From: Bolinopsis microptera
Taxonomy: Eukaryota; Ctenophora; Tentaculata; Lobata; Bolinopsidae
Reading direction: 5' to 3'
DNA: 64,000 bases
Assembly (NCBI RefSeq): GCF_026151205.1
Contig: NC_087081.1
Coordinates: forward strand, 17,275,058-17,339,057
The position numbers and the translations under genes were made by a program. The notes below the pieces were generated by a model. That model was not told where the DNA came from, did not search any database, and saw only the letters and a list, made by a program, of their open reading frames with translations. The first letter of the stretch is position 1, and every line of letters starts with the position of its first letter. Shown piece after piece: positions 157 to 63,902 of this stretch.

Positions 157-228
157 ACTATATATTTCCACAGAGAGTACCGTGTAACCATGGCAACCAT
201 GATAGTAACTATATATTTCCACAGAGAG
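157..228 (+). repeat. Two-copy tandem duplication of a 3' splice site
   Basis: The stretch tatatatttccacagagag occurs at about 159-178 and again at about 210-228, roughly 50 bp apart. The right copy is the acceptor of the protease exon. The left copy is an intact-looking duplicate of the polypyrimidine tract, the AG and the first exon bases. Confidence 0.6.
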
Positions 229-1168
229 CACGATGTGCGTGGTTGATCCTGATCGGGAAGCTACTGCCTTTGCTGGGGACTCTGGAGGCCCACTTTTCGT
301 GAAATCTGGAGAAAACTTCGCACAAATAGGCTTAGTGAGCTGGGGAGCAGGGGACGCGAAAGAGAAAGCGTACAATATGTTCCTTAACCTCCACCATTAC
401 ACTGACTGGGTTAAAGCTGCCATTAAGCGTGCTGAAGCAGAGTCATGGTTGGAACTTCACACGGGCGCTAACCATGGGGTGGTGGTGATACACGATAACA
501 CGGGTCACAAGTCCACTATTTGTAACGAAAATGTGGGTAAAGACGAGGTCAATGCTATTTGCAGAGAACAGGGCTACAAAATGGGAGTTCTGGCTGACGT
601 TAGAGAGTACAGACCAGATAGGAAACGTAGAAACCAGGATACCACACCATTCGGGCAGACAAATCTGAAATGTAGTGCTGAGGCTAAAGATGTGATGTCA
701 GAGTGTACAATGGATAAGTACGGCGAGTCTGAAGTGCCGTGTTTTAGCGGGGAGGAACTAGCTGTGAAGTGCTCTAACCAGGTGTGGCACTTCAAGGTAA
801 CCCGCATTGTGCCCAAAACTAGGACCGTTAAAGGTACCAGCTTTGTAAAGGGTAAGGTAATGTGTGAGGTCACCGCTAGCAAATATGGTATGGACCTGGA
901 TTTGAAATCTCACGTGAGAGTAGGCCTAGTAATGAGAGGAGTAGATGGTGTAGAGGAAGTAGATGCAGATATGAAATACAAGAGGCGGGTGAACGCTTAT
1001 ACGTCTAAAGTTAAATCTACAGACGAAATAAAAGAGGACGAATGTTTTGCTTGCATTGCTTACGTGGGCGGCACCACAATCTACACTGTAGCAACACATG
1101 GTCCTGAGGATTGTCCTGACATTGACCAACATTACCAGCAGTGGGTGGAGGAGCAACACCACGTGTAA
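225..1168 (+). CDS. Trypsin-like serine protease with SRCR domain, 3' exon(s), partial
   Basis: The exon opens after a 3' splice site (ttccacag at 217-224, phase 1) and reads to a TAA at 1166-1168. It starts near the end of an S1 protease domain. GDSGGPL, carrying the catalytic Ser, is about 20 residues in, followed by the usual IGLVSWGAG stretch and the C-terminal helix. The catalytic His and Asp must lie in exons left of the window. After the protease comes a cysteine-rich segment (GVVVIHDN..., ICREQGYKMG, FGQTNLKC, ELAVKC) that resembles a scavenger receptor cysteine-rich domain, then about 110 residues I cannot assign. This suggests a secreted protease of the immune or matrix type. The stop lies inside an inserted CRE/E-box repeat. 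A second, diverged copy of the last ~25 codons follows at 1231-1315. Confident for the protease end, moderate for SRCR. Confidence 0.75.
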
Positions 1169-1235
1169 TGACGTCACACCACGTGTTATGACGTCACACC
1201 ACGTGTTATGACGTCACACCACGTGTTATGTAGCA
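1160..1235 (+). repeat. CRE/E-box minisatellite at the end of the protease coding region
   Basis: Three to four copies of a ~20-bp unit, TGACGTCACACCACGTG plus TTA. The unit joins a perfect CRE palindrome (TGACGTCA) and a perfect E-box palindrome (CACGTG). It supplies the present stop codon of the protease ORF. Confidence 0.85.
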
Positions 1236-1315
1236 ACACACGGCCCTGATGATTGTCGTGACATTGACCAACATTACCAGCAGTGGGTGGAGAAGCAACA
1301 CCACCAGAATTAGTC
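1231..1315 (+). pseudogene. Displaced duplicate of the protease C-terminal codons
   Basis: The sequence encodes VATHGPDDCRDIDQHYQQW... and ends in TAG. It is a near copy of the last ~25 codons of the upstream ORF (VATHGPEDCPDIDQHYQQW...). The CRE/E-box repeat array separates the two copies. This copy may be the original C-terminus, cut off by the insertion. Confidence 0.6.
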
Positions 1316-1759
1316 GAATTTTAGTGTATTGTAGTATTTGGTCTTACCAATGGTAAAGACTCACTGTTTATTGTTTAATAATGCTTTGACTCTTTTTAGT
1401 TGTTTTACAAGTTTACAATCACTCACATTACTTATTGATAAATTAAAAATGTTTTGTTTAAATTTCCCATCATTTATCTAATCCCAGGGCCAGGGTCACC
1501 ACCTACCCTGATCACAAAAATCCCTCCTTTTCACTATTATCCATTCGTAACCATCCTTTACTTTTTTTTAAGTGGTGGATGGAAAAAATTAAACATAAGT
1601 GATAAGATACTCGAAGAAGTTTAAATTAGATGATGATCGCTATTTATCAAAATTTAACAAGAATTATTAATTAAGCTTAAATAAATCATTTTGTTTTCAT
1701 TGTAGAAGCGTGTTAATTGATAATAATGAGCATGAAATGAGAACTAGCTTGAAACTCAC
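1316..1759. other. No gene seen
   Basis: AT-rich sequence after the protease and before the leftmost DNMT1 exon. No convincing exon on either strand. The CXXC exons of DNMT1 expected further left on the minus strand were not found. Confidence 0.5.
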
Positions 1760-4700
1760 AGTTGCTTGCATTTGATCCACGAAAATGGCCTCGAAGGAAG
1801 ATTGTACGAGGGGCGTGACAGTTGCGTGCGATATGTCCGTACTTTTAGTTTTACTAGCAACCTGGGGGTCGACAATTTTAAATAAACTATACATTTTCAG
1901 GTGCGCAATAGAATTACAAATATGCGCTAAAATGTACAGATCCAACAACCCGTTTTAGAGGTAACTTTTGAAAAGTTGAAGTAACAGGGTCAACAGTTGA
2001 AGGTTAACAACTATTCACTGCAACTTACTGCTGCCTAGCTAAATTTAACAAACCTTAGGTTGAACATTAACGAGAGCTCTATGAGAGTTAGCTGGCTGTG
2101 TCCCACCCAGAGTAACTCCAGCCAGCTGGATAAGCCCTCTCACTGCGGGCACTGTGATCAGTAGGTCCTCATCATCATCAGCAGCCTGACAGTTATTAGA
2201 TAATTAGTTAATTAGATAATTATTAGGTCCTCATCATCATCAGCAGCCTAACAGTTATTAGATAATTACCTAGTTAATTAGATAATTAGTAGGTCCTCAT
2301 CATCATCAGCAGCCTACCAGTTATTAGTTAATTAGTTAATTAGATAATCAGTAGGTCCTCATTATCATCAGCAGCCTAACAGTTATTAGATAATTAGTTA
2401 ATTAGATAATTAGTAGGTCCTCATTATCATCAGCAGCCTAACAGTTATTAGATAATTAGTTAATTAGATAATTAGTTAATTAGATAATTAGTAGGTCCTC
2501 ATTATCATCAGCAGCCTAACAGTTATTAGATAATTAGTTAATTAGATAATTAGTTAATTAGATAATTAGTAGGTCCTCATCATCATCAGCAGCCTAACAG
2601 TTATTAGATAATTAGTTAATTAGATAATTAGTAGGTCCTCATCATCATCAGCAGCCTAACAGTTATTAGATAATTAGTTAATTAGATAATTAGAAGGTCC
2701 TCATCTGCATCAGCAGCCTAACAGTTATTAGATGATTACCTAGTTAATTAGATAATTAGTAGGTCCTCATCATCATCAGCAGCCTAACAGTTATTAGATA
2801 ATTAGTTAATTAGATAATCAGTAGGTCCCTCATTATCATCAGCAGCCTAACAGTTATTAGATAATTAGTTAATTAGATAATTAGTAGGTCCTCATTATCA
2901 TCAGCAGCCTAACAGTTATTAGATAATTAGTTAATTAGATAATTAGTTATTAGATAATTAGTAGGTCCTCATTATCATCAGCAGCCTAACAGTTATTAGA
3001 TAATTAGTTAATTAGATAATTAGTAGGTCCTCATCATCATCAGCAGCCTAACAGTTATTAGATAATTAGTTAATTAGATAATTAGTTAATTAGATAATTA
3101 GTAGGTCCTCATTATCATCAGCAGCCTAACAGTTATTAGATAATTAGTTAATTAGATAATTAGTAGGTCCTCATTATCATCAGCAGCCTAACAGTTATTA
3201 GATAATTAGTTAATTAGATAATTAGTTAATTAGATAATTAGTAGGTCCTCATTATCATCAGCAGCCTAACAGTTATTAGATAATTAGTTAATTAGATAAT
3301 TTGTAGGTCCTCATTATCATCAGCAGCCTAACAGTTATTAGATAATTAGTTAATTAGATAATTAGTTAATTAGATAATTAGTAGGTCCTCATTATCATCA
3401 GCAGCCTAACAGTTATTAGATAATTAGTTATTAGATAATTAGTAGGTCCTCATCATCATCAGCAGCCTAACAGTTATTAGATAATTAGTTAATTAGATAA
3501 TTAGTTAATTAGATAATTAGTAGGTCCTCATTATCATCAGCAGCCTAACAGTTATTAGATAATTAGTTAATTAGATAATTAGTAGGTCCTCATTATCATC
3601 AGCAGCCTAACAGTTATTAGATAATTAGTTAATTAGATAATTAGTTAATTAGATAATTAGTAGGTCCTCATTATCATCAGCAGCCTAACAGTTATTAGAT
3701 AATTAGTTAATTAGATAATTAGTAGGTCCTCATCATCATCAGCAGCCTAACAGTTATTAGATAATTAGTTAATTAGATAATTAGTTAATTAGATAATTAG
3801 TAGGTCCTCATCATCATCAGCAGCCTAACAGTTATTAGATAATTAGTTAATTAGATAATTAGTAGGTCCTCATCATCATCAGCAGCCTAACAGTTATTAG
3901 ATAATTACCTAGTTAATCAGATAATTAGTAGGTCCTCATCATCATCAGCAGCCTACCAGTTATTAGTTAATTAGTTAATTAGATAATCAGTAGGTCCTCA
4001 TTATCATCAGCAGCCTAACAGTTATTAGATAATTAGTTAATTAGATAATTAGTAGGTCCTCATTATCATCAGCAGCCTAACAGTTATTAGATAATTAGTT
4101 AATTAGATAATTAGTTAATTAGATTAATTGGGTCAACTACATCCTTAAAAAAACTAAAAATATAACAAAACTAAATCCTTAATGAAACTAAAAATATAAC
4201 TAAAATAAAAAATAAAAAACTAACTCTATCATAGCTCTCGATCTGCTCAATGAGAAACTGAGCGTGCTTCAGAAGAGTTTCCTCGGAGAACTTGGCGCAG
4301 TTCTCGGGTGGCACTACTAGCTGAACACAGTTGATCAGATCCTCCATTGTCATATCTGAGAGGTAGTGGAAGTATTAAGTATTAAGTAACGACTAAAATC
4401 GTTTTTTTTTAAAACGGATATAAAATTTAGTTCAACAGCTTGGATCTGCAGTGGTCGGGTGGACTTCACCACTGCACTGCTACTATATCAGTATTAACAT
4501 ATTATTAGCATATTATTAGCATATTATTATATGTTAATTTATAAACTACAAACCTGAATCCTCCTCCAATATCTCGATTACTGTTTTGCTAAGATATGTT
4601 TTCTCACGTAACATGTCGAATAAGAGGGCATACTGTTCACTGGGTTGGGATAACAGATAGTCTGCATATGCTGACAAGAGAAGTGGTGTTATTACGTCAC

Positions 4701-7124
4701 ACCACGTGTTATTACGTCACACCACGTGTTATGACGTCACACCACGTGACCATACTGTTCACTAGGTTGGGATAACAGATAGTCTGCATATGCTGACAAG
4801 AGAAGTGGTGTTATGACGTCACACCACGTGTTATGACGGCACACCACGTGTTATGACGGCACACCACGTGTTATGACGTCACAACACGTGACCATACTGT
4901 TCACTGGGTTGGGAAAACAGATAGTCTGCATATGCTGACAAGAGAAGTGGTGTTATGACGTCACACCACGTGTTATGACGTCACACCACGTGACCATACT
5001 GTTCACTGGGTTGGGATAACAGATAGTCTGCATATGCTGACAAGAGAAGTGGTCTTATCAGTCAACTTGGTTGGGTAATAAATTTACTCAGAATTACATT
5101 GAACAAAAGCCCCGGTATAAAGTGGTAAAGTATGGGTAGGGTAAATTGGAGTTTTATTGTACCAACCTTATTCTTAAACACACAATAATGAACAGTACAC
5201 ACATATAACACATATAGTACAGTATATAGTACCTGTGGTGAAGCCTATTAGTTCTTTCTCCCCTCCATCAAACCCAGCTATGTACCAGGAATCAATGGGA
5301 CCCAGTCTGGAACCCCGCACTCCACCTGAATGTGGTGAATGTTATATTATATATTATATATAATATGTTATCAGATAACCTAATCTATTTTAGTACAGGT
5401 ATAATATTAATCTGTGTTCAGTGGCATAACTGTACATGTAGGTTTATTGTAGGAGAAGATGTTTCACCTTGAAGACTTGGGGAATCGTCGTAGATAGGTT
5501 TAACATAACCACTAAAGTAGAGATGTACATTCTGGTCTATCAACCCTGGGAGTAGATAGGTTTAATGTTTATACAGGCGAGTAGTATGTATAATATAGTA
5601 CCGACTATTGATATAATGCTTAAACATTTATGAACATGATAAATAAGATGAGTGTAAGTAAACAAGTCCATCTTTAATGGATTTTCCTTGACTAAGTCTT
5701 AACTTCCTTGACTAAGTCTCGCTTAGTGCCTAGAATGTGCCCAAACTGTGAAAATATAGCCAACTGGGCACCCTATCAAGTATCAACATGTTACAAGGCT
5801 ACCCACCCATAGCACTGAAAACAGATTATCTGCTATTTCTAACTCACCAGTGTCAAAGGGGCACAAGTGACCATACTCATCATACACAGTAAAGTCAGTG
5901 ATACGATGCTGCGGTTTTTCGTTCCACTCACTGTCACCTGAATTATAAATCAATTTCGTTATGATTCCCCCAATTCCTAAATCATTTATTTAGAAGAACT
6001 GAAAAATTCAGCAGATAGAACTTTTACAAAATTTCCACCAAAAGATGTAAGTTTACCATTACTGTCAGCGTCAAACAGGGACAAGGACTCTGAAGCCAAT
6101 GCAATGAACTCCTCTACAGCATCAGCATCATCACCTCCGAACATCTTCAACGATTCAGAATCCAGCAGCTGATTTTAATATAACACTTGAATGAGCTAGT
6201 ACATTAAAATTCATTTAATATATTGGTGACTCAATATTTATTTTTTAAATGTATATATACATATACATATATATACTAACTAGAGTAAAATTTGAACGCA
6301 TTTAAGTTTTGTCAACTTACTTGTTTGCAGACATCACATTTCAAAGGCTTAGATGCAAGGCTTTTCTTTTTGAGATTCTTATTGGAGTCCCCATTGTAGT
6401 TTTCTGTTTTTAAACGCTTACTTGCTGGTCCTTCTGTTAGAAAGACATTCAGAGAACCAAGCTTTTCTTTAATTTCATGTAATACAACTTGGTGTTCCAA
6501 AAGCATTGTCTCAAAAGTGTTTCTCAATAACAAAATTATGTATAAAGGATCGGTGGGTGTAATTCGAGTTGTATGGTCAGAGGACCCTTGATAAAATTAT
6601 TCTTTGACTATTACTAAGCTTAACATTTTGAATTTGTAGAACAATTTATCTATGATTTTCAAGAACAAATGGTTCAATACATTTTGCAATTCAATAACCA
6701 CTGCATGACTTAGTTAGTATTGCTCTAAAATTTCTAACCTTGTTCTGTCAGAACAATTTGGCACGAGGTTTCTTCCCCAACTATGAAACTATATTATCGA
6801 CCTACTCATAAGAGCGAAGAAAGATTACCAAAAAGCATCAAATAATGGTAAAAACTTAGTTATGCAAATGATTGAAAAGAAATCAATCAAGGATCCTCTA
6901 ACCATGACATGTAGAATTGCACTCTCCTACTTAATAAATATTTTTTACCAGGAATCAAATTTACCTTGAGCCTCTGCTACAATATCTGTTGAAGATGAGG
7001 GTATCCCATCAACAACGTTCAGAGATACTTTTATGTCAGTTTCTACATCTTGGGACTTCTTCAATTTACTAACTTTAGCTGGAAACATCTGCCGAAGATC
7101 TTTCTGCTTGACATTTTTAACCAT
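1760..7124 (-). CDS. DNMT1: DNA (cytosine-5)-methyltransferase 1, N-terminal half (RFTS), ten exons
   Basis: Maintenance methyltransferase acting in the nucleus on hemimethylated CpG. Exons in transcript order: 6965-7124, about 6321-6509 or 6522, 6057-6168, 5848-5937, 5468-5545, 5233-5325, 4554-4670, 4225-4355, 2054-2185, 1760-1861. Phases agree at every junction from 6321 leftwards. The first exon has QKDLRQMF, like the PCNA-binding QxxI..HF of DNMT1. Then come a Lys-rich linker and the RFTS domain: [82 protein letters not shown], then [10 protein letters not shown]. Where vertebrate RFTS has a zinc-ligand Cys (YCKHGH), this has YDEYGH. About 400 residues are present. The CXXC, BAH and catalytic regions are not seen. 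The first ATG (7122-7124) may be internal, because a possible acceptor lies just upstream next to the scaffold gap. Introns at 2186-4224 and 4671-5232 carry splice-site minisatellites. Confidence 0.9.
2160..4125 (-). repeat. Minisatellite made of the 3' splice site and first 21 bases of a DNMT1 exon
   Basis: About 30 copies of a 60-80 bp unit. On the minus strand each unit reads an AT-rich tract (TAATTAACTAATTATC type), then TTAG, then GCTGCTGATGATGATGAGG. The copy at 2160-2190 is the real exon start, with acceptor GTCAG and first exon base at 2185. The array therefore fills the end of the intron with imitation acceptors. Reading from an upstream copy meets an in-frame TAA within one unit. 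Confidence 0.9.
4629..5056 (-). repeat. Four copies of a DNMT1 exon start, interleaved with CRE/E-box repeats
   Basis: The real exon start (acceptor CTTGTCAG, exon base 4670) and ~40 bases of exon are repeated at about 4741-4810, 4888-4950 and 4992-5056. Between the copies lie one to four units of TGACGTCACACCACGTG. Only the leftmost copy continues into the full exon. Confidence 0.88.
6534..6964. other. DNMT1 intron, nothing recognised
   Basis: AT-rich intron between the first and second visible DNMT1 exons. The phase of the first exon (ends phase 1) does not match either plausible acceptor of the next. A small exon may be hidden here, or one border may be misread. Confidence 0.4.
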
Positions 7125-7210
7125 TTTTATTGCTAAGGTTCAAAACAAGATGTAGACTTATAATCAAATTAACACAACAAATTGCATGGTACAATAAATA
7201 AATTTTAAAA

Positions 7211-7310
7211 NNNNNNNNNNNNNNNNNNNNNNNNNNNNNNNNNNNNNNNNNNNNNNNNNNNNNNNNNNNNNNNNNNNNNNNNNNNNNNNNNNNNNNNNNN
7301 NNNNNNNNNN
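7211..7310. other. Scaffold gap (100 N)
   Basis: Exactly 100 N, the usual convention for a gap of unknown length. It lies between the DNMT1 5' end and the truncated PSMC4 gene. Confidence 0.98.
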
Positions 7311-7394: not shown

Positions 7395-7748
7395 ATATCT
7401 GTTGTAGGTTGTAGTGAACTTACAACTAATTTGTAGTATTGTAGTGAACTATATTAACTATACTGTTGTAGTGTTGTAGTGAACCATACTAACTATACTG
7501 TTGTAGTGTTGTAGTGAACTATATTAACTATACTGTTGTAGTGTTGTAGTGAACTATACTAACTATACTGTTGTAGTGTTGTAGTGAACTATACTAACTA
7601 TACTGTTGTAGTGTTGTAGTAAACTATATTAACTATACTGTTGCAGTGTTGTAGTGAACTATACTAACTATACTGTTGTAGTGTTGTAGTGAACTATACT
7701 AACTATACTGTTGTAGTGTTGTAGTGAACTATATTAACTATACTGTTG
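7395..7748. repeat. 35-bp minisatellite, left block
   Basis: About nine copies of a 35-bp unit (core ctgttgtagtgttgtagtga). The same array resumes at 9625, on the other side of the LINE, so the LINE interrupts it. Confidence 0.9.
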
Positions 7749-9624: not shown

Positions 9625-11229
<1,605 letters not shown>

Positions 11230-13450: not shown

Positions 13451-13454
13451 ACTT

Positions 13455-23238: not shown

Positions 23239-26200
23239 TCAAAGAGCGTCCACTCTAAGAAGAGAAGTAGAATCGAGAAGTTGAGGAAGAGGGCCGGTAT
23301 CCCTGGCAACACACACAGACAACTGGTTAATGTTGTATACTCCCGGTGTAGAGAAGACAGCCGTCAAGTTTACTGATCTTGTCACGTGATCAGGTATCTC
23401 TATCTTGTGACGGACTACACCCGACCACATGAAGGGGAGAGTGTCCTTTGGTGGAGCCGGCCTGTGGGAATATCATATCATAACCACAATAATAAGGGAG
23501 CAATACTTTGGTGGAGCCGGCCTGTGGGAATATCATATCATAACCACAATAATAAGGGAGCAATACTTTGGTGGAGCCGGCCTGTGGGAATATCATATCA
23601 TAACCACAATAATAGGGGAGCAATACTTTGGTGGAGCCGGCCTGTGGGAATATCATATCATAACCACAATAATAGGGGAGCAATACTTTGGTGGAGCCGG
23701 CCTGTGGGAATATCATATCATAACCACAATAATAGGGGAACAATACTTTGGTGGAGCCGGCCTGTGGGAATATCATATCATAACCACAATAATAGGGGAG
23801 CAATACTTTGGTGGAGCCGGCCTGTGGGAATATCATATCATAACCACAATAATAGGGGAACAATACTTTGGTGGAGCCGGCCTGTGGGAATTTCATATCA
23901 TAACCACATTAATAGGGGAGCAATACTTTGGTGGAGCCGGCCTGTGGGAATATCATATCATAACCACAATAATAGGGGAACAATACTTTGGTGGAGCCGG
24001 CCTGTGGGAATATCATATCATAACCACAATAATAGGGGAACAATACTTTGGTGGAGCCGGCCTGTGGGAATTTCATATCATAACCACAATAATAGGGGAG
24101 CAATACTTTGGTGGAGCCGGCCTGTGGGAATATCATATCATAACCACAATAATAAGGGAGCAATACTTTGGTGGAGCCGGCCTGTGGGAATATCATATCA
24201 TAACCACAATAATAAGGGAGCAATACTTTGGTGGAGCCGGCCTGTGGGAATATCATATCATAACCACAATAATAAGGGAGCAATACTTTTGGTGGAGCCG
24301 GCCTGTGGGAATATCATATCATAACCACAATAATAAGGGAGCAATACTTTGGTGAAGCCGGCCTGTGGGAATTTCATATCATAACCACAATAATAAGGGA
24401 GCAATACTTTGGTGGAGCCGGCCTGTGGGAATTTCATATCATAACCACAATAATAAGGGAGCAATACTTTGGTGGAGCCGGCCTGTGGGAATTTCATATC
24501 ATAACCACAATAATAAGGGAGCAATACTTTGGTGGAGCCGGCCTGTGGGAGTTTCATATCATAACCACAATAATAAGGGAGCAATACTTTGGTGGAGCCG
24601 GCCTGTGGGAATTTCATATCATAACCACAATAATAGGGAGCAATACTTTGGTGGAGCCGGCCTGCGGGAATTTCATATCATAACCACAATAATAAGGGAG
24701 CAATACTTTGGTGGAGCCAGCCTGTGGGAATTTCATATCATAACCACAATAATAAGGGAACAATACTTTGGTGGAGCCGGCCTGTGGGAATTTCATATCA
24801 TAACCACAATAATAAGGGAGCAATACTTTGGTGGAGCCGGCCTGTGGGAATTTCATATCATAACCACAATAATAAGGGAGCAATACTTTGGTGGAGCCGG
24901 CCTGTGGGAATTTCATATCATAACCACAATAATAGGGGAGCAATACTTTGGTGGAGCCGGCCTGTGGGAGTTTCATATCATAACCACAATAATAAGGGAG
25001 CAATACTTTTGGTGGAGCCGGCCTGTGGGAATTTCATATCATAACCACAATAATAGGGGAACAATACTTTGGTGGAGCCGGCCTGTGGGAGTTTCATATC
25101 ATAACCACAATAATAGGGGAGCAATACTTTGGTGGAGCCGGCCTGTGGGAATATCATATCATAACCACAATAATAAGGGAGCAATACTTTAGTGGAGCCG
25201 GCCTGCGGGAATTTCATATCATAACCACAATAATAAGGGAGCAATACTTTAGGGTAAGTATAGGAGCAAGTGTGTACGAGTAGGAATAACATTATCTGAC
25301 TAACCTGCCAGCAGTGGTATTAGCAGTAACCATAACAGTAAGTGAGGTGTTGTAACAGTTAGTAATGTGCAGTGTTACCGGTACCGGCAGCAGAGGTGCC
25401 GTCTTGAAATCTGCTGACCAAGTTTCCTGGTAACTCAGACCCAAACTTAGTAACTGTGGGAATGTATATATTAGAATGTGCGCTACAGGTAAAATTGTTT
25501 GCTACGATAAAAGTAGATTATAAGTACGTTTGACGGATACAAATTAATAACTTATTAACTAAAGAGATACAAGTTAAGTAACTTATTAATTTAGTAACTG
25601 ATTGGATGTGAATTGTCAGTTTAGAATTAGTTGATTGAAGAACTGCTCGAGTGCTCTTATTGATCATGTCTCACAAAATATTGGAATTATTGTTGTATTT
25701 TGATGGCTTATTGGCGACAAATTTATAATAACTTTTCATTAATTAAGTCGGTACCTGTTGAGGCTGTGGAAGGAGAGAAGCCTGTAGAGCGGTGTGGTTT
25801 TGAGCATGGAGTATTCTAGACTTGTTGCCCTCCTCAGAGACACTGCCCTCCCAGAACACTAGCATTCCTGCAGTGGGAACTGTGTATTAAAGAGAACACT
25901 AGCATTCCTGCAGTTGGAACTGTATTAAAGAGAACACTAGCATTCCTGCAGTGGGAACTGTATTAAAGAGGACACTAGCATTCCTGCAGTGGGAACTGTA
26001 TTAAAGAGAACACTACCATTTCTGCAATGGGAACTGTGTATTAAAGAGGACACTAGCATTCCTGCAGTGGGAACTGTGTATTAAAGAGGACACTAGCATT
26101 CCTGCAATGGGAACTGTGTATTAAAGAGAACACTAGCATTCCTGCAGTGGGAACTGTGTATTAAAGAGAACACTAGCATTCCTGCAGTGGGAACTGTGTA

Positions 26201-56200: not shown

Positions 56201-58917
56201 GTTGGCGATGGTGGACGGTGTGATTACAGTTCTCCATGTAGTGTGTGGGATTACCCTCCTGGGTAACGGTACAGGTTCTCCCATCTTTATTAAACCACCA
56301 TCTTCTGTATAGAAACAGCTCAAATTATTTGAATAGGATTGTAGCATTACAGAATAAGTCAATCCTACTTTGGAATACAATAACCAGTGCTCGACCGGGG
56401 CCCCGGCCAAAATAATAACCCCCGACCACGGCCAAAATTGAGCAATTAACCGGGGGCAATACCTTTATACCTGGACCCGACCAAAATATTTACCCCGGCC
56501 CCGGCCAAAAACCATACATCTGTCGGGGGCACAGCCGGGGATTTTATAAATAATTTCAGAAAATTTTCTAAGCAGTTAAACACAATTTAACTGTACCGTA
56601 AATCGTAATAATAAAATTTGAAACAATTTATCATCAAAGTTATTATTATTATAAATATAATTATTTATGCTTCAATTTCTGACTTCACAATTGTAAGCCA
56701 CCCCCGGCCCCGGCAAAATGGAAGATTTCCCGGCCCCGTTAAGATCCCGCCCCCGGTCGATCACTGACAATAACTTATTCTCACAGGTTTATTTAAGATA
56801 AGAGAGTTCTGCATAACATGGGGTATGCTGTGGAACATTAGTATCAGACTGTCTTCACTAATTATCATGCTGCTAGCTACAGAGCTGCTCTACTGCACAA
56901 AGCAGCGGGTTGTGGTCGCTATACTGGTGTGCTACTCAATATTACAGGTACTTGTTAGGGGGGGGGGGGGGGCAGCGGGTTGTGGTCGCTATACTGGTGT
57001 GCTACTCAATATTACAGGTACTTGTTAGGGGGGGGGGGGGGCAGCGGGTTGTGGTCGCTATACTGGTGTGCTACAAAATATTACAGGTACTTGTTAGGGG
57101 GGGGGGCAGCGGGTTGTGGTCGCTATACTGGTGTGCTACTCCATATTACAGGTACTTGTTAGAGGGGGGGGGGGGGGGGCAGCAGGTTGTGGTCGCTATA
57201 CTGGTGTGCTACTCAATATTACAAGTACTTGTTAGGGGGGGCAGCGGGTTGTGGTCGCTATACTGGTGTGCTACTCAATATTACAGGTACTTGTTAGAGG
57301 GGGGGGGGGGGGCAGCAGGTTGTGGTCGCTATACTGGTGTGCTACTCCATATTACAGGTACTTGTTAGGGGGGGGGGGGGGGGGGGCAGCGGGTTGTGGT
57401 CGCTATACTGGTGTGCTACTCCATATTACAAGTACTTGTTAGGGGGGGGGGGGGGGGCAGCGGGTTGTGGTCGCTATACTGGTGTGCTACTCAATATTAC
57501 AGGTACTTGTTAGGGGGGGGGGGGCAGCGGGTTGTGGTCGCTATACTGGTGTGCTACTCAATATTACAGGTACTTGTTAGGGGGGGGGGGGACCGGGTTG
57601 TGGTCGCTATACTAGTGTGCTACTCAATATTACAGGTACTTGTTAGTGGGGGGGGGGGGGGGGGCAGCGGGTTGTGGTCACTATACTGGTGTGCTACTCA
57701 ATATTACAGGTACTTGTTAGGGGGGGGGGGGGGGGGCAGCGGGTTGTGGTCGCTATATGGTGTGCTACTCTATATTACAGGTACGTGTTAGGGGGGGGGG
57801 GGTGGGGCAGCGGGTTTTGTGGTCGCAATTCTGGTGTGATACTCAATATTAAGGGTACTTGTTAGTAGGGGGGGGGGGGGGGGCCAGCGGGTTGTGGTCA
57901 CTTTACTGGTTGTGCTACTCAATAATACAGGTACTTGTTAGGGGGGGGGGGGCAGCGGGTTGTGGTCGGTATACTGGTGTTGCTACTCCATATTACAGGT
58001 ACTGTTAGGGGGGGGGGGGGGGGGGCAAGCGGGTTGGGGGTCGTATACTGGTGTGCTACTCAATTATTACAGGTACTTGTTAGAGGAGGGGGGGGGGGCA
58101 GGGGGTGTGGTCGATATTTCTGGTGTGCTACTCAATATTTCAGGTTACCTTGTTAGGGGGGGGGGGGCAGAGGGTTGTGGTCGCTATATGGTGTGCTACT
58201 CAAGATTACAGGTACTTGTTAGAGGGGGGGGGGGGGGGGGGCCAGCGGGGTGTGGGCGCTATACTGGTGTGCTACTCAAATATTACGGTACTTGTTAGGG
58301 GGGGGGGGGGGCAGCGGGGTTGTTGGTCGCTATACTGGTGTGATTACCAATATTTCAGGTACTTGTTTAGGGGGGGGGGGTGCAGCGGGTGGTGGTCGCT
58401 TTTTGGTGTGCTACTCATATTAAAGGTACTTATTAGGGGGGCTGCAGGTTGTGGTCGCTATACTGGTGTGCACTCCATATTACCAGGTACTTGTTAGGGG
58501 AGGGGGGGGGGGGCAGAGGGTTGTGGTCGCTATACTGGTTGCTACTCCTTTTACAGGTACTTGTTAGGGGGGGGGGGCAGAGGGTTGTGGTCGCTTTACT
58601 GGTGTGCTACTCATTATTACAGGTATTGTTAGAGGGGGGGGGGGGGGGGGCAGCGGTTGTGGTCGCTACTACTGGTGTGCTACTCAATACTTACAGGTAC
58701 TTGTATAGGGGGGGGGGGGGGCAGCGGGTTGTGGTCCTTTTAGGGGTCCCCCAATTAAAGTACTTGTTGGGGGGGGGGGGGGGGGGGCGGGGGGGGTTTT
58801 TGGTCGCTATAGGGGTGTGCTCCCAATTTAAAGGTATTGGGTTGGGGGGGGGGGGGGGGGGGGGGGGGGAGGGGGTTTTGGGGGTGTTACGGTGTGCTAC
58901 TAAATATTCAAGTCTTG

Positions 58918-58955
<38 letters not shown>

Positions 58956-59437
58956 GGGGTTTGCTTTTTACTGGTGGGGGCTACTCAAATTACAGGTACT
59001 TTTTTTGGGGGGGGGGGGGGGGGCACGGGGTTGTGGTCGCTATATGGTGTGCTCTCAATTTCAGGTACTTTTTTTAGGGGGGGGGGGGGGGGGGGAGGGG
59101 GGGGGGGCACCGGGGCACTAAAATCGGCGGGGGGGGGGGGGCCCCCCGGGGGGGGGAGGGGGGTCGTTTTGGGGCCCCCCCGGGGGGGGGGGGGGCAGCG
59201 GGTTGTGGTCGCTATCTGGTGTGTTTTTTAAAAGTACTTTTTTAGGGGGGGGGGGGGGGGGGGGGGGCAGCGGGTTGTGGTCTTTTTTACTGGTGTGCAA
59301 ACTCAAATACGGACTTGTTAGAGGGGGGGGGGGGGGGGGGGGCGGGGGGGCAATCCCAAATACGGGGGGGGGGGGGGGGGGGGGGGGGAGGGGGTTTTTT
59401 TCGCTATATGGTGTGCTACTCAATATTACAGGTATTT

Positions 59438-59473
<36 letters not shown>

Positions 59474-62400
59474 CTATCGGGGGGCGCCCCCAAAAAAGGC
59501 GGGGGGGGGGGGGGGGGGGGGGGCCAGGCGGGTTGTGGGGCTTTACTGGTTTTGCTATTTCAAAAAATTAACATACTTGTTAGAGGGGGGGGGGGGGGGG
59601 GGGGGGGCGCGGGTTTTTTCCTTATACTTTCTACTCAAAACAAAATTTAGGGGGGGGGGGGGGGGGGGGGCGCGGGTTGGGCGCCTTGGGGGTCCCTTTC
59701 CAATATTCGGTCTTGTTGTTGGACGGGGTTTTTTTATGAAAATGTGATTTTTTAATTGAAGAAATAAATTTAGGAAGATTTTCCTTAATTACGAATAGTG
59801 CAGCCGGGGTTAAACGTTTGGTGTTACTTTGGTTCCCAATTTTTCCAACCCCCTTTTTGAAACAAAATAGCCGTTAATAAAAATCCATACTATTTAGAAC
59901 ATTTGATCGGTTTAAAATTTTTCAACGGGGGGACTCAGTTTTTTTACTAAACAAATTATATTAACAAATACTGTTAACAAAATGTTAATAAATAATAATT
60001 TTAAAATATCCTTTCAAATTTCGTACCAAAATTCTAGCCCGAATTTCGACTGTTTTAAATTTTTTGCGACCCTAGTAGAGTTGGAAATAATAGCCGCCAA
60101 CAGTGAGTTAATCTTCTTGTTTCCTTTTCACACATAAAATTAAAGACTTTTTTAATTAGTTTTTTCCCGGGGTGACCCGGCCCTTACCCCCCCTGAGGAG
60201 GGGCAGGGGGTGGACGCAGTGAGGGGTGGGGACGTCACACCCCACGTGACGTCAAAATTTAAATGGACTATTAATTAGTGTACCCAGGTGCCCCCCGGGC
60301 CCCCACTATACCCTCCTGAGGAGGTGCAGGGGGGTTGGACGTCAGTGAGGGGTGTGACGTCAACCTCCCTACTGGTCCCCCTTTTTAATGCTTAAAATTG
60401 TGTACCCCAGGTGCCCGGACTTTCCCTGGGGGGGGGACTTTACAAGTAAGGAATCAGGAGAATCTGGGGGGGGGCAACATCCCCGGCAACAGGGGTTTTT
60501 TTACAACAAAAACATTCAAATTTATTCAATTATTGGGTTTATTTTTTTTGGGGGGGAGAATTTTTAAAAAAACTTTACACTTCTAAAATTTGTTAAGCCT
60601 TAAAATGGCTTAATTTTCGATTAGTAAAAGCTTATGGATCTTATTTTTTAAAATTTTTGTTAATATTTAATTAATTAAAATATTTTAATTAAAAAATTTT
60701 AAATTTAAAATTAATTAATTAATTAATTGCACACTAGGGAGACCCGCACGGGTAGGTTAATCTGGTGGGTTTGAAATTATAGAGTTCCTTTTTCCCGCCC
60801 CCCTTCTCCCCGCCTTTAAAAAAATTATCTTCTCAAAAACAACCGTGGCTGCCACGTTATTTTCTTTATTCTGTAAAACTTTTTTTAAAACGCTGTGAAG
60901 CCCTTTGTAGTTTTTAGTGAACCATTTGTAGTTAACACTTTGTAGTGTAGTGAACACATTTGTTACAGACGATTATATTTTGGTAAGGTGGTTAAGATTA
61001 ATCTGACTTACAATAATGTTGCGTTAATTTTGGTCCACTAGAACAATAATGTCTCAGGCCGTTATCCCACGAAGGGCGAGACAGAGACTTACTCTACAAC
61101 CCTTTCCAGGACTCCCTCAACACTAGTTCCTCCTCCTCCTCACAGCAACCCTCCCAACCTGACACCTCACGCCGCACTGCACTAGTCATGTGTCTCACTT
61201 ACTCCTTCCACTATCTCTCCCCCAGATATTATCTGCTATTCTAGAGTACTCACAGACAGTGTGGGGCACCAGCTTCATCTTCACTTCCTTCCCTCCTGAC
61301 CTGGGCCGTATTAAGATGTACGGAGTGCTGTTTTACAGTGTCGGGGTAGCGGCCCGGGCCTGGGTTACCCCCCTTCTCTTCTTATTCGCAGAGAGGAGGA
61401 AGCTTTGGCACCACGTGTCATGACGTCACACCACGTATCATGACGTCACACCACGTGTCATGACGTCACACCACGTGTCATGACGTCACGATAACGCGGC
61501 CCGAGCCTGGGTTACCCCCTTCTCTTCTTATTCGCAGAGAGGAGGAAGCTTTGGCACCACGTGTCCATGTCGTCACACCACGTGTAATGACGTCACACCA
61601 CGTGTCATGACGTCACGATAACGCGGCCCGGGCCTGGGTTACCCCCTTCTCTTCTTATTCGCAGAGAGGAGGAAGCTGTTCTGGCACCACGTGTCATGAC
61701 GTCACACCACGTGTCATGACGTCACGATAACGCGGCCCGGGCCTGGGTTACCCCCTTCTCTTCTTATTCGCAGAGAAAAGGAAGCTTTGGCACCACGTGT
61801 CATGACGTCACACCACGTGTCATGACGTCACACCACGTGTCATGACGTCACGATAACGCGGCCCGGGCCTGGAAGCTTTTCAGTGTGTGTCACAGAGCCA
61901 GATAGAAAGAGGTCATCAAAACGTTAAAACAAGGTTCTACAAGCCTGCCAAAATACAGGTCGAATATGATAATATCAGACCTTGTATCAGTGATGTTGAT
62001 AACTGAATATACTATCAGTGATGTTGATCAGTTGATAACTGAATATACTATCAGTGATGAAAATGGTATCTCCGTGAATGAAGCAGCCCATGAATTTAAA
62101 TGGCCAGCTGTATTTTCGCTCAATCGCAGAGACAAACATCAGTTTTTCGCTTACAATTCGAAACGTATGTATTTTAGGGTGTATATAATATATGTATATA
62201 ACACAATGTATACTGTATATAATAATTAATATGTATATAACACACTGTATAATGTATATAATGAGCATATAACACAATGTATAATGTATATAATAATTAA
62301 TATGTATATAATACAATGTAAAATGTATATAATAATTAATATGTATATAACACAATGTATACTGTATATAATAATTAATATGTATATAACACACTGTATA

Positions 62401-63902
62401 ATGTATATAATGAGCATATAACACAATGTATAATGTATATAATAATTAATATGTATATAATACAATGTAAAATGTATATAATATGTATATAACACAATGT
62501 TAATGAATATAATACATAAGTATATAACACAATCATGTAATAACCTGATCTTTAGAAGCAGTCTTTAGTTTGCTTTTGTAGGACATGTCAGGTGAGGAGC
62601 CTCTTGAAGGTGCTTTAACTGGGGATTCAGTTAATTAGTTACTTAATTAGTCAATTAATCAGTCAACTAATTAATTAATTAGTTGATTATAATTAGTTGG
62701 TTAAGAAGTTAATTAATAAGTTCACTAATTATTAGTTAATTAATTATTAGTTAATTAATTATTAGTTGATAAATTAATTAGTTAGTTAATTAATTAATAA
62801 GATAGAACTAACTTAGTTTGATAGGATGATTGGGGTCCCTTGGGGAGTGCAGACAGAGTAAAGATATGTTAGATAAGGTGAGGGGTACTTGGAGAGGGTT
62901 CTTCACTGGAATCAGCACTGTCACCGTCTCTGCAAGGGCAACATTACTTATCTCTATTTAGAATATTAATTGTAAGCCTTAACTTAAAACTAGTAATAAT
63001 ATAAATAATACGCAGTAGTATTACCTTAATTTAAAAACTAATAATAATATAAATAATACGCAGTAGTATTACTAATAATAATATAAATAATACGGAGTAG
63101 TATTACTAATTACCGTTAATAGCACAAATAGGTCTGAAGGTGTTGAGGGTATCCCCACTAAATACTGTCTGGCTAGGTTTAAAAAAGGAAACCCGCCCCT
63201 CACTCATGAGACCGTGAGCAACGTCTTCAAGCTCTAACTCTCCCTGTCTCTTAGCTTTGTCAAAATCTGAAAGTGAAAGTGAAAGTGAAACATATCCGCC
63301 CCTCACTCATGAGACCGTGAGCAACGTCTTCAAGCTCTAACTCTCCCTGTCTCTTAGCTTTGTCAAAATCTGAAAGTGAAAGTGAAACATATCCGCCCCT
63401 CACTCATGAGACCGTGAGCAACGTCTTCAAGCTCTAACTCTCCCTGTCTCTTAGCTTTGTCAAAATCTGAAAGTGAAAGTGAAACATATCCGCCCCTCAC
63501 TCATGAGGCCGGGGGCAAAAAAGTCTTCAAAGCTCTAAAATCTCCCTGTCTCTTAGCTTTGTCAAAATCTGGAGTACGTTATTATTTATCAGCCATATTT
63601 TAGTTTTCAAGATGTGATTGCCTTACTAGATTGCAAATACACATAATCTATTGTGTGATATTAGTTATGGCTTCCATATTATAATTCACGGACTATTTGG
63701 TGGTATCCCGGCATGTTTAAACACAAGATAAAGTGAAGGATATCTTTAGATGGAATCCGTACCAACATGGCAAGTTTTTTATTAAAAACTATTTATAACC
63801 ATGTTAAACTATGTTTTAAAATATCACACGTTCACCAGCAATCGAGTTAGCAAACTTTAAACATATCAAACATACCAGGGGTCTCCTTCACCATCCCGAC
63901 AA
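23239..63902 (-). CDS. TRAPPC8: Trafficking protein particle complex subunit 8, C-terminal portion, at least 16 exons
   Basis: TRAPPC8 is a subunit of TRAPPIII, which acts on Rab1 in ER-Golgi and autophagy traffic. Exons in transcript order: 63876-63902 (uncertain), 63114-63266, 62813-62929, 62545-62618, 45096-45269, 35890-35997, 35345-35411, 35016-35123, 33695-33821, 33446-33547, 28449-28614, 28058-28206, 27744 to about 27902, 25755-25867, 25305-25453, 23239-23461. Most junction phases agree. Recognisable stretches are VLIPVKNPLQVPLTLSNISL, LCPRGPRLNQTKDQR, LFCGEVKCAVIEATN, VVNLPDGQLNP, YIAVWVYGGEE, MLVFWEGSVSEEG, VPVTLHITNCYNTSL and the C-terminal FSTPGVYNINQLSV. Small exons appear to be missing between 45096 and 35997 and between 33446 and 28614. 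The border at about 27902 is open. Introns of 17, 9 and 5 kb hold nested genes and arrays. The N-terminal half lies right of the window. Confidence 0.9.
23451..25255 (-). repeat. 60-bp minisatellite copying the 3' splice site of the last TRAPPC8 exon
   Basis: Thirty copies of a 60-bp unit. On the minus strand each reads TATGAAATTCCCACAG, then GCCGGCTCCACCAAAG, the acceptor and first 16 exon bases of the terminal TRAPPC8 exon (first base 23461). Only the leftmost copy continues into the exon. Any upstream acceptor reads into an in-frame TGA within the unit. Copies differ by A/T and G/A variants that form runs. The 100-300 residue ORFs through the array are by-products of a period divisible by three. 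Confidence 0.95.
25855..26255 (-). repeat. Minisatellite copying the 3' splice site of the TRAPPC8 exon at 25867
   Basis: Ten units of about 36-42 bp. On the minus strand each reads ACACAGTTCCCACTGCAG, then GAATGCTAGTGTTCT. The leftmost is the true acceptor, and the exon continues GGGAGGGC. The AG is kept in all copies, including those with point changes. Confidence 0.93.
26345..27765 (-). repeat. 33-bp minisatellite copying the 5' splice site of the TRAPPC8 exon ending at 27744
   Basis: About 42 copies of a 33-bp unit. On the minus strand each reads TCTCCCCACTATAACATGG, then GTACATACTTTACA. The first copy is the end of the exon encoding SADSPSPHYNMG, and GTACAT can serve as donor (phase 1, matching the acceptor at 25867). 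Because 33 is divisible by three and the frame is open, each later donor would add 11 residues (SPHYNMGTYFT). A 9-bp subrepeat expansion (aagtatgta) sits at 27432-27476. Confidence 0.9.
28776..29820 (-). mobile_element. Retroelement remnant: RT C-terminus and nuclease-like domain
   Basis: Two minus-strand pieces. 29373-29819 has LPVRYGGLGIPVLSKLASEE, and 28830-29159 has GGYIIIRHNSVRDF, CEPHLQTLDGE, HPDIRARGFY and YFDLKFFNPNSESY. Both belong to one element type that I recall as common in cnidarian and other invertebrate genomes, placed after a reverse transcriptase. The PD...DLK spacing suggests a PD-(D/E)xK nuclease fold, by inference. It lies in a TRAPPC8 intron. A tail segment (ggactcctc.aactacattaaat) recurs at 35555-35620. 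Confidence 0.65.
30296..33065 (+). CDS. CAP-domain single-pass membrane protein with RPTP-like juxtamembrane region, three exons
   Basis: Exons: 30296-30344 (phase 1 donor GTAGGA), 30741-32187 (phase 2), 32390-33065. They join in frame to 723 residues. MMKLKFLFALTLALITG is a signal peptide. A CAP/SCP domain follows: EEHNKIR, GENIG and AQILWKST.YVNCG...MCQYYPP match CAP motifs, but the usual GHFTQ histidine is absent (GLRKCAQ). About 250 residues are unassigned. They include a furin-like RGKRQ and an acidic Asp run. Next is PYITAELKSNDFGR joined to SFGGYYNGEL, a motif found just outside the membrane in receptor tyrosine phosphatases. Then come one transmembrane helix (FLVIIIGFIVSHFI) with RKRREKRR, and a cytoplasmic tail rich in DQYSDQYS repeats. 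No phosphatase domain. The gene lies antisense inside a TRAPPC8 intron. Confidence 0.8.
33126..33258. mobile_element. Short palindromic MITE-like element
   Basis: Begins acagtaaaaccccgatatacc and ends ggtaaatcggggttttacg. Internal aaaccccgatttaccgcgg faces ccgcggtaaatcggggttt around ~22 bases. A CAGT.AAACC.CGATATA end is typical of pogo/Tigger-type elements. No ORF. Confidence 0.45.
33260..33440. repeat. 24-bp AT-rich minisatellite
   Basis: About seven copies of a ~24-bp unit (ttattaaagtgtactaatat type), just downstream on the minus strand of the TRAPPC8 exon at 33446-33547. Confidence 0.8.
33898..35003. repeat. Near-perfect 20-bp minisatellite filling a TRAPPC8 intron
   Basis: About 55 copies of cagataacgagacaaacaga with only two visible point variants (near 34410 and 34699). 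It starts about 12 bases inside the intron after the exon ending at 35016, and ends ~75 bases before the next exon. The intron (33822-35015) is therefore almost all repeat. The three long minus-strand ORFs of SVCLVICLF type are artefacts. Confidence 0.95.
36280..36790. repeat. Two diverged tandem copies of a ~300-bp hairpin-bearing repeat
   Basis: 36345-36440 and 36655-36760 share gtca/gttaaaacagtgaaat and gtcgcggaaag.tgaaatctgaaaat. Each is followed by a hairpin (aaaatgtcctac, then gtaggacatttt). Intronic, no gene. Confidence 0.6.
37340..37780 (+). repeat. Dispersed repeat with a 98-residue ORF
   Basis: The left part matches 18540-18665 and the right part matches 9870-10110. An open frame at 37439-37735 (MMKYAITDRE... 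to ALKQQ) is not recognised. With two other damaged copies in the window it is probably a transposon-derived ORF and not a host gene. Confidence 0.5.
37795..38285. repeat. 10-bp GTGCGTGAGA-type minisatellite
   Basis: About 45 imperfect decamers (gtgcgtgaga, gtgtgtgaga, gtacgtgaga), with actccaacaa inserts at three places. Long HSHALSRTLT ORFs on the minus strand come from the repeat. Confidence 0.9.
38575..38810. repeat. Repeats of the zinc-finger gene C-terminal codons
   Basis: About seven copies of a 31-37 bp unit (gtgagccagtaagtaggtttcacta). The unit overlaps the coding end of the zinc-finger ORF, so several copies lie past its stop. Confidence 0.8.
38769..40571 (-). CDS. Intronless C2H2 zinc-finger protein with a long SVFSPSG repeat tail
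   Basis: One open frame of 600 residues from the ATG at 40571. Residues ~35-225 hold five C2H2 fingers: CPSC...H..QH, CRDCAYTTGRKHNLNVHQRV, CSHCSFSTARKSTLASHQRN, CSLCSFKTRHNSQLEEHQQL and CSLCSFKTLQNSLLIEHQQL. One linker has the classic HTGKKPYKC form. Between fingers 4 and 5 is a GYQ repeat (five copies). The C-terminal ~270 residues are about 37 copies of a 7-residue SVFSPSG unit coded by a 21-bp minisatellite that starts inside the coding region. The second half is Ser/Pro/Gly-only, as expected for a disordered tail. Likely a nuclear DNA-binding protein. It is nested in a 9-kb TRAPPC8 intron on the same strand and has no introns, so a retrocopy origin is possible. Confidence 0.82.
   Translation of the reverse strand: MMDPGIVFPEIIKTEVKKEDRVVAKSEGFVCSSSSSVCPSCRTMFSNEDNFTEHVQQHYLGSPLSHINNEHCSSTVPILKVTHKCRDCAYTTGRKHNLNVHQRVHTGKKPYKCSHCSFSTARKSTLASHQRNHNNGGQRTYRCSLCSFKTRHNSQLEEHQQLHGLGYQGYQGYQGYQGYQGYDPAGLAVSTSGTTYSGLITYRCSLCSFKTLQNSLLIEHQQLHEETLSPNPPSLLLIAPSIASIPSIPNTQRTMLKEAPRKDSIESPMFVKPLLFVKPLIFSSSTVPTITTCSSRIYPPVSSDMTLSEDSPNSSLSETVFSPSGSVFSPSGSVFSLSGSVFSPSGSVFSPSGSVFSLSGSVFSPSGSVFSPSGSVFSPSGSVFSPSGSVFSPSGSVFSPSGSVFSPSGPVSSPSGSVFSLSGSVFSPSGSVFSPSGPVSSPSGSVFSPSRSVFSPSGSVSSPSGSVFSLSGSVSSPSGSVFSPSGSVSSPSGSVFSPSGSVFSPSGSVFSPSGSVSSLSGSVFSPSGSVFSPSGSVSSPSGSVFSPSGSVFSPSGSVFSPSGSVFSPSGSVFSPSGSVFLPNTYNPLNHSETYLLAHYL
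38826..39616 (-). repeat. Coding 21-bp minisatellite
   Basis: About 37 units of gagaagactgatccactggg plus c/a, all in frame with the zinc-finger ORF. Variants (ggcgagg, gagcgag, ggtcca) change P to L or S/P residues without breaking the frame. Confidence 0.93.
40572..41050. other. Upstream flank of the zinc-finger gene
   Basis: AT-rich flank of the nested gene, which may contain its promoter. A plus-strand ORF of 84 codons (40642-40896) is unrecognised and has no supporting motif. Confidence 0.4.
41040..42805. repeat. 33-bp minisatellite
   Basis: About 52 copies of a 33-bp unit (ggtaatggtatctcattaca, then gctggtacaagca). Occasional agcag insertions shift the frame. Runs of the t.atatcat and t.atctcat variants alternate. 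No exon border recognised in the unit. Confidence 0.93.
42806..43220. other. No gene seen
   Basis: Intronic sequence between two arrays, with a 12-C run at 43031-43042, one of the few long C tracts on the plus strand. Confidence 0.4.
43225..44450. repeat. Highly homogeneous 52-bp minisatellite
   Basis: About 23 copies of a 52-bp unit (accaattaaacacacctaat, then taacattgcgtgttaaaag...). Only one substitution is visible (gcatg for gcgtg near 44318). The homogeneity implies very recent expansion or gene conversion. Confidence 0.95.
44737..45042 (-). mobile_element. tRNA-derived SINE with 14-bp target-site duplication
   Basis: On the minus strand the head has a box A-like TGGCTCAGTCGGTTAATCCG and a box B-like GCGAGTTCGAATCCC. 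A ~200-bp body and an ATT-rich tail follow. The direct repeat agagtaattataat flanks it at 44723-44736 and 45043-45056. The head gagccactgagcc is internally reiterated. It sits about 50 bases downstream of a TRAPPC8 donor. Confidence 0.82.
45345..46326. repeat. 28-bp minisatellite, block 1
   Basis: About 35 copies of acagtacgtgtacctcacag plus accacact. The same array continues in blocks 2 and 3, interrupted by two hAT-type insertions. ORFs of 200-500 codons in all plus frames are artefacts. Confidence 0.95.
46327..47912. mobile_element. hAT-type non-autonomous element, copy 1 (1586 bp)
   Basis: Terminal inverted repeats CAGGGGTGTAGGAA and TTCCTACACCCCTG, with an 8-bp target duplication tcacagac (46319-46326 and 47913-47920) taken from the minisatellite. 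The interior has three complete ~250-bp tandem units and a shorter, diverged fourth. No transposase. The 72-codon ORFs repeat with the 250-bp unit and are not genes. Confidence 0.92.
47913..49264. repeat. 28-bp minisatellite, block 2
   Basis: About 48 copies of the same 28-bp unit. The block starts with the rare variant cgtgcaactc and ends with cagtaagtg, both also found at the matching ends of other blocks. Confidence 0.95.
49265..50596. mobile_element. hAT-type non-autonomous element, copy 2 (1332 bp)
   Basis: Same terminal inverted repeats and the same tcacagac flank (49257-49264 and 50597-50604) as copy 1. It has one 250-bp unit fewer and is otherwise almost identical. It arose by duplication of element plus flanking array, not by a second insertion, because both flanks match. 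Confidence 0.92.
50597..51780. repeat. 28-bp minisatellite, block 3
   Basis: About 42 copies. The variant order follows block 2, apart from a one-base loss near 51053 and an earlier end. Confidence 0.95.
51850..53755. repeat. 16-bp minisatellite
   Basis: About 118 copies of tagtatactcttctaa with cttctagtag and cttcttgtag variants. The variant clusters suggest higher-order duplication. It directly follows the 28-bp array after ~70 unique bases. Confidence 0.95.
53756..54585. other. No gene seen
   Basis: AT-rich intron sequence of TRAPPC8, with no recognised exon on either strand. Confidence 0.4.
54590..55321 (+). pseudogene. Reverse-transcriptase fragment with GIPMG and YVDD motifs
   Basis: The plus strand reads VFIQTKGIPMGGNSSSPIAD, then, after a frameshift near 54790, NNKRYVDDLSIINYLYF, KIINYLDLNINISTEGLEIS, TDDFNFHVVSLTFPHSNIPT and a C-terminal helix region. 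This is a reverse transcriptase of the type often found as domesticated-looking or Penelope-related copies in invertebrates. The frameshift and missing 5' part make it a dead copy. Confidence 0.75.
55615..61423 (+). CDS. Rhodopsin-type GPCR-like receptor, four exons, C-terminal part uncertain
   Basis: Exons: 55615-55675, 56065-56268, 56787-56947, 61226 to about 61423. Phases 1, 1 and 0 match across all joins. TM1 is WIVGLLANLIVLSHLA with the conserved Asn. TM2 is LVVVLAMVDGVITVLHVVCG with LAxxD. A Cys starts TM3 (FCITWGMLWNISIRLSSLII), which ends LLATELLYC in place of DRY. TM4 spans the last junction (VVVAILVCYSILQ joined to ILSAIL). The last exon has one more hydrophobic segment ending WVTPLLFLFAERRKL, which could be TM5 or a TM7/helix-8 remnant. 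So at most five or six segments are visible, and exons may be lost in the degraded 57-60 kb region. Intracellular loop 1 is coded by a CRE/E-box repeat. The gene is antisense inside a 17-kb TRAPPC8 intron. Confidence 0.65.
56385..56766. mobile_element. hAT-type MITE in a receptor intron (382 bp)
   Basis: Ends CAGTGCTCGACCGGGG and CCCCCGGTCGATCACTG are inverted. The 8-bp target duplication acaataac is present at 56377-56384 and 56767-56774. The interior is GC-rich at both ends and AT-rich in the middle, without an ORF. The right target-duplication copy begins 20 bases before the receptor exon at 56787. Confidence 0.93.
56901..59720 (+). repeat. Poly-G minisatellite copying the 5' splice site of a receptor exon
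   Basis: About 40 units of 60-75 bp. Each has the last ~46 exon bases (gcagcgggttgtggtcgcta ... caatattacag), then the donor gtacttgttag and a G run of 7 to more than 30. The first unit is the true end of the exon at 56947. Units are clean to about 57.8 kb, then show growing indels and miscalls, which suggests poor consensus in G runs. Gly-rich ORFs on both strands here are artefacts. Confidence 0.9.
59721..61189. other. Low-confidence sequence, no gene assigned
   Basis: AT-rich with a pair of GC-rich tandem segments (60170-60260 and 60280-60370, each with cctgaggagg.gcagggg and a gacgtca motif). Base quality looks poor near 59.7-60.6 kb. Missing receptor exons could be hidden here. Confidence 0.4.
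61386..61880 (+). repeat. Tandem copies of the receptor exon end, joined to CRE/E-box repeats
   Basis: The stretch gcggcccgggcctgggttac ... ttcgcagagaggaggaagct is repeated about four times. Between copies lie one to four units of CACGTGTCATGACGTCACAC. The last copy is cut short (gcggcccgggcctggaagctt) and runs on into a different downstream sequence. Confidence 0.9.
61881..62544. repeat. AT-rich minisatellite and unassigned sequence
   Basis: 62165-62520 carries ~38-bp units of gtatataacacaatgtataa type in higher-order order. 61966-62160 has a short tandem duplication (atcagtgatgttgat) in an open plus-strand frame with no recognised domain. Confidence 0.6.
63198..63580 (-). repeat. Four copies of the start of a TRAPPC8 exon with its 3' splice site
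   Basis: The exon at 63114-63266 begins after (TTTCAC)n TTTCAG. About 70 bases of exon plus this acceptor are repeated three more times upstream (to the right), period ~96-105 bp. The outermost copy is damaged (gaggccgggggcaaaaaag). Only the innermost copy continues into the complete exon. Confidence 0.9.

Follow-up and report, generated by a model that had tools for sequence, protein, structure and literature searches.

The window analysed here is a stretch of 64,000 nucleotides from the ctenophore Bolinopsis microptera (C10:17275058-17339057; the assembly comprises 264.65 Mb in 232 contigs). Exons were placed in it by homology and reading frame, and they belong to a trypsin-SRCR gene, the RFTS region of DNMT1, and TRAPPC8. 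The DNMT1 RFTS region, on the minus strand, aligns to the DNMT1 structure 3epz with an E-value of 6.8e-58 and without a gap across the acceptor that bears an array. The last exon of a long minus-strand TRAPPC8 gene matches the Pfam family Ig_TPPC8_C above the cut-off (E 1.9e-9), and two more TPPC8 domains match this gene below the Pfam cut-off; a PDB search with a TRAPPC8 exon string gave no match. Exons at 62.8-65.3 kb are presumably part of TRAPPC8 as well, as judged from similarity and the reading frame. A small gene finder trained on the exons of this window added one DNMT1 exon beyond those set by homology, but it mistook copies of array units for exons too. No Pfam hit was obtained for the exons at 56.8 and 61.2 kb, and the latter is doubtful because the gene finder stops it 32 bp ahead of the array.

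TRF reported 116 rows within the window, and merging yielded 57 arrays with a period of at least 10 in 71.3 kb (the window with short flanks), which were compared with the exon list. Before counting, 21 of the 57 were dropped: three in coding exons, seven upstream of the last called exon, one (the upstream 44-bp array) with its intron start unseen, and ten that are intergenic, in retroelement regions, or in an unbounded interval, two of which begin close to a donor (at 2 and 9 bp) and do not cross it. Of the 36 usable intron arrays that were left, eight contain an exon edge inside the repeat unit, or seven if one doubtful exon is excluded (the array at 61349 was scored as an edge despite the gene finder). 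These arrays hit DNMT1 and TRAPPC8 exons, among others (Table 1). As the first-pass annotation had noted for units of 33 to ~100 bp, acceptors and donors are both affected; the unit lengths found range from 33 to about 107 bp. Both ends of the intron that separates TRAPPC8 exons C4 and C3 carry an array, one of 40 bp at the acceptor and one of 33 bp at the donor, and exons C3 and C4 join in frame.

Table 1. Tandem arrays at or near exon edges and the 20-bp array in a coding exon (window positions unless a contig position is given; the slash marks the splice site).
Feature	Position	Strand	Evidence
44-bp x 40 array across acceptor of presumed trypsin exon, upstream of window; cut at start of stretch read	C10:17272500-17274260		TRF, exon list
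Two-copy acceptor duplication, ATATTTCCACAG/AGAG, trypsin-SRCR exon 225-1313	about 156..232	+	sequence read; Trypsin and SRCR hits; absent from TRF output
20-bp array CACCACGTGTNATGACGTCA in 3' end of coding exon, flanked by direct duplications of about 56 bp	1157..1236	+	flank comparison
Composite array across acceptor of DNMT1 exon 4554-4670; unit = acceptor, 42 exonic bp and 20-bp repeats	4629..5058	-	TRF; ungapped DNMT1 alignment over edge; flank duplication
60-bp x 30 array across acceptor TTCCCACAG/GCCGGC, last TRAPPC8 exon 23239-23461	23446..25250	-	TRF, Pfam
40-bp x 10 array (proper 25853-26248) across acceptor CACTGCAG/GAATGC, TRAPPC8 exon 25755-25867	25826..26248	-	TRF
33-bp x 43 array across donor AACATGG/GTACAT, TRAPPC8 exon ending 27744	26346..27764	-	TRF
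TRAPPC8 intron filled by 20-bp x 55 array, starting about 14 bp past donor; unit without exon edge	33901..35002	-	TRF
71-bp array across donor ATTACAG/GTACTTG; G runs between host copies; exon 56787-56947 from gene finder only	56902..59115	+	TRF, gene finder
Composite array: four copies of about 60 bp host sequence and 20-bp repeats; candidate exon edge inside	61349..61851	+	sequence read, flank duplication
34/48-bp array filling intron from 4 bp past donor of exon 63114-63266; unit without edge	62977..63110	-	TRF
97-bp x 3.8 array across acceptor CACTTTCAG/ATTTTGAC, exon 63114-63266	63193..63571	-	TRF
76-bp array; unit holds called 27-bp micro-exon 63876-63902, whole, with both splice sites	63859..64359 (window ends 64000)	-	TRF, gene finder

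The comparison with the exon list flags 11 arrays, three beyond the eight counted. One is the upstream 44-bp array, whose exon is taken to be trypsin from its AAHC motif. The other two, at 38595 and 62668, were kept among the 36 and scored as having no edge: the former meets the end of a zinc-finger reading frame and involves no splice site, and the latter overlaps a doubtful donor by 6 bp and has (TTAA)n-like sequence. No splice edge was found at the 31-bp array 38595-38801, the 33-bp array at 41071, or the 52-bp array at 43249. Other repeats of the window include a coding minisatellite at 38832-39616 (21 bp x 37), whose heptad repeat (SGSVFSP) closes a C2H2 zinc-finger protein, and a LINE-like element with RNase H that has 35-bp arrays of one common unit at both ends (7399-7753 and 9628-9721). 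A tandemly recurring block at 45350-51781 contains three occurrences of a 28-bp array and two of a 250-bp repeat.

Tandem duplications of exon-intron boundaries have been termed mirages, a name that comes from amphioxus Adh3 and also covers globins (PMC3087553); a further mirage was described in amphioxus PGBD5 (PMC3902484). The suggestion that arrays of this kind belong to no named class can therefore be set aside. The portions of these two papers drawn on here describe mirages in Adh3, the globins BflGb6 and BflGb9, TnC, and PGBD5, with units of 10-160 bp at both 5' and 3' edges, unstable lengths, and regular splicing reported as undisturbed. The likeness to the ctenophore arrays lies in repeats of that size across the exon-intron boundary at either edge, an intact exon, and an unstable copy number. 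The unit spans the boundary at DNMT1 4629-5058 and in TRAPPC8 at 23446, 25826, and 26346; an intact exon lies at one array end, as indicated by in-frame joins and by homology across the retained edge; and the copy numbers of the 33-, 40-, and 60-bp arrays differ between paralogues. Compared with the amphioxus cases in those portions of the literature, the animal is another one, many arrays occur per region, one intron has arrays at both ends, edge arrays reach about 43 copies, and some units include filler DNA. The arrays share the features of mirages that were examined, in what is probably a new host phylum, for which our literature searches returned no earlier report among the matches listed. 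Mirages, which the cited portions of PMC3087553 and PMC3902484 describe from amphioxus only, would probably be extended to a ctenophore, and their local density makes their origin testable.

Two other known phenomena show partial similarity. Intron gain by tandem genomic duplication, as described for potato RdRp in the part of PMC4974935 consulted, likewise involves a duplication that contains splice signals. In our gene models, in contrast, the copies lie within existing introns and no new intron is made within a former exon, which does not fit this assignment. Internal tandem repeats of human duplicated genes are similar in that minisatellites alter gene structure between paralogues, although in the part of that paper considered (PMC2812944) an exon edge within the unit is apparently no part of their definition. 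A link to chromatin loops was also considered, on the basis of part of PMC12221973, and led nowhere.

The first-pass annotation had noted at least eight arrays that include an exon edge and extend only into the intron. The eight TRF arrays bear out the first half of this statement. The second half follows from geometry: a tandem duplication that crosses an edge always leaves an intact exon on the exon side, so that the intron-side placement of the copies is automatic and carries no information. The number of edges hit, on the other hand, is informative.

How many hits are expected was calculated in two ways. When introns are ignored and units are dropped anywhere in the 71.3 kb with its 66 edges, 1.48 edge arrays are expected against eight seen (P=0.00005). 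When units are instead placed randomly, each over the de-arrayed intron to which it belongs, with the intron minus its array assumed to be the original intron and with intron and array lengths entered by hand, 6.01 are expected against eight of the 36 arrays (P=0.18). A strong preference for edges vanishes once intron length counts, and splice-site seeding as a strong effect was rejected under this intron-aware null. Six of the eight edge arrays lie in de-arrayed introns of 59-327 bp: the 60-bp array in one of 98 bp, the 33- and 40-bp arrays in one of 135 bp, the DNMT1 array in one of 234 bp, and the arrays at 63193 and 63859 in introns of 327 and 59 bp, respectively; the two arrays with unproven exons lie in de-arrayed introns of 589 and 2,101 bp. 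It had been argued earlier that random tandem duplication should not favour exon edges this strongly, and that the idea of seeding should fall if, genome-wide, units contained edges no more often than intron length predicts. Duplications of 30-100 bp are expected to cross edges often in short introns, and the regional count (71.3 kb around the window and four myosin loci) came out on the side that the annotation had named as contrary to its idea. The upstream 44-bp array and the duplication at 156-232 stand outside the count because an intron start or a TRF row is missing; adding them would slightly raise the excess.

The four myosin-head loci (L065-L068, 35.4 kb) were taken from a Pfam search, their overlapping TRF rows were merged by hand, and arrays of L067 outside the myosin exons were dropped. 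The gene finder returned chains of myosin-like exons there and, in L066 and L067, some additional weak ones. In L065, two tandem matches at 2713-3186 correspond to one myosin-head region (profile about 102-167) and are possibly alternative exons. None of the 20 arrays in these loci contains an edge, with 1.31 expected, a sample of low power because only short units (10-48 bp) occur. The choice of loci was not fully blind, since long open frames hinted at repeats in L065 and L067; such a selection bias would favour finding arrays. Pooled with the region of the window, 7.31 edge arrays are expected and eight observed (P=0.45).

Exon edges could nevertheless be true hot spots, with duplications seeded at splice sites by R-loops, a paused polymerase, nicks, or reverse transcription. 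The eight arrays seen against 6.0 expected point this way and speak to that extent against an origin by ordinary duplication. Proximity can be cited too: six further arrays of the 57 stop short of a called exon edge, beginning 2-14 bp from it. In the myosin loci, two start on the final base of an exon and three lie 1-11 bp from an edge; none has the four exonic bases that the edge rule demands of a unit, and by this rule arrays that start on the final exon base score no edge. Arrays near edges are, however, expected where arrays fill most of a short intron, and the excess is not significant under either intron-aware count. None of the units read in a non-systematic look resembled copies of spliced RNA. 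We regard hot spots as an unlikely explanation.

The explanation that we consider probable is that these mirage minisatellites originated in small introns through ordinary tandem duplication. A tandem duplication of 30-100 bp would arise from an error of local repair or copying, with no preferred location, and one that falls inside an exon would usually be removed by selection. By calculation, a duplication that overlaps a short intron will with high probability cross an exon edge, and in that case the exon side always retains an intact exon. From there the array may expand and contract on its intron side through slippage or unequal exchange, processes with which the copy-number changes described below would be consistent. 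Among the causes that the first-pass annotation had offered, one fits, namely selection that tolerates duplications only with an intact site beside the exon. In small introns, exon-edge arrays thus need no mechanism specific to splice sites, which makes them a trap for scans of repeat-rich compact genomes.

Some arrays contain foreign filler, either a dispersed 20-bp minisatellite or G runs, between host copies, a structure that would fit the repair of staggered breaks with filling-in and filler capture. Patch-mediated double-strand-break repair makes tandem duplications and is comparable in that a direct duplication flanks an insert; here, in contrast, the insert is a repeated 20-bp minisatellite found genome-wide.

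Parts of window 20.0-45.2 kb recur as an inverted duplicate elsewhere on this contig, at a distance of about 100 kb (C10:17414755-17444500). The identity of the two copies is patchy: about 94-98% where 20-35 kb is matched, and mostly 87-91% across 35-45 kb. Three edge arrays are present at the matching edges in the paralogue and are therefore older than the segmental duplication, and their copy numbers have changed in both directions. According to TRF, the 33-bp array has 42.9 copies here and 26.9 in the paralogue, the 40-bp array 10.1 and 22.0, and the 60-bp array 30.1 and 45.1 (about 37 without an interruption of about 480 bp). The 20-bp array at 33901-35002 has 55.1 and 54.5 copies. The 52-bp array at 43249-44449, which is not an edge array, has 23 copies here and about one in the paralogue. 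A TRAPPC8-like exon at 45058-45223 has a GC donor here (GAGAG/GCGAGT) and GTGAGT in the paralogue.

The retention of three arrays in both paralogues could be taken to mean that exon-edge arrays are kept by selection, with extra splice sites or intron length helping splicing or regulation. As copy numbers changed in both directions between the paralogues, we find this very improbable. An assembly artefact is even harder to credit: tandem arrays are easily misassembled and copy numbers may be off, but the units differ, the exons are intact, and the same arrays recur in the nearby inverted duplicate at about 94-98% identity.

The 20-bp minisatellite is widely dispersed: CACCACGTGTNATGACGTCA has 502 exact matches genome-wide on many contigs, and a reversed-pattern control has none. 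Its flanks were compared at 41 non-redundant sites, consisting of the window and those from the first hundred places of the 502 (C1 to C5), with L043 and L057 excluded as duplicates. In this test, which is that for target duplications of a transposable element, direct host duplications anchored at the array ends reach a score of at least 10 at 16 of the 41 sites, with aligned lengths of 10-86 bp, and a score of at least 20 at 12. Left and right flanks taken from different loci, used as a control, reach these scores in 3 and 0 of 1,602 comparisons, respectively. Of 12 flank-duplicated sites read, nine start and seven end at or near CACCACGTG, as counted by eye. The duplicated segment contains an acceptor at DNMT1 and at the gene L016. 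The exon of L016 is presumably that of a serine hydroxymethyltransferase-like gene. Similarly, the G runs at 56902-59115 act as filler between host copies.

It is conceivable, if rather doubtful, that this minisatellite, with arrays commonly bounded near CACCACGTG, moves genome-wide and inserts with direct target duplications of 10-90 bp, and that a duplicated exon edge then starts a mirage. If so, some exon-edge arrays would be the product of a mobile minisatellite or of repair that captured it as filler. That a mobile 20-mer was the main maker of exon-edge duplications is a stronger proposition and seems quite improbable to us. Its dispersal, the duplicated flanks, the recurrent boundaries, and the two genes with an exon edge inside the duplication argue for it. 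Against it, at most three arrays of the window are concerned (1157, 4629, and 61349), and 25 of the 41 sites lack a flank duplication with a score of 10 or more. A search for an empty insertion site of the 1157 array returned only the window's own copy, and a near paralogue of this site matches up to window base 1156 and then stops. A longer transposon behind the 20-mer was also rejected, since the only longer sequence adjoining arrays on both sides at unlinked loci is a match of 22 bp at two of them (L045 and L058); two 20-mer sites 2 kb apart share 21 bp, and other matches lie away from the arrays.

The flank-duplicated 20-mer looks new, and it offers a concrete handle on how such duplications start, which makes it a lead worth following. 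An excess of 20-mer sites near contig ends, weak because the sites on C6 and C10 come from among the matches listed, was observed in addition, with 15 of 27 sites on five contigs lying within 2.5 Mb of an end where 7.3 are expected (P=0.0015).
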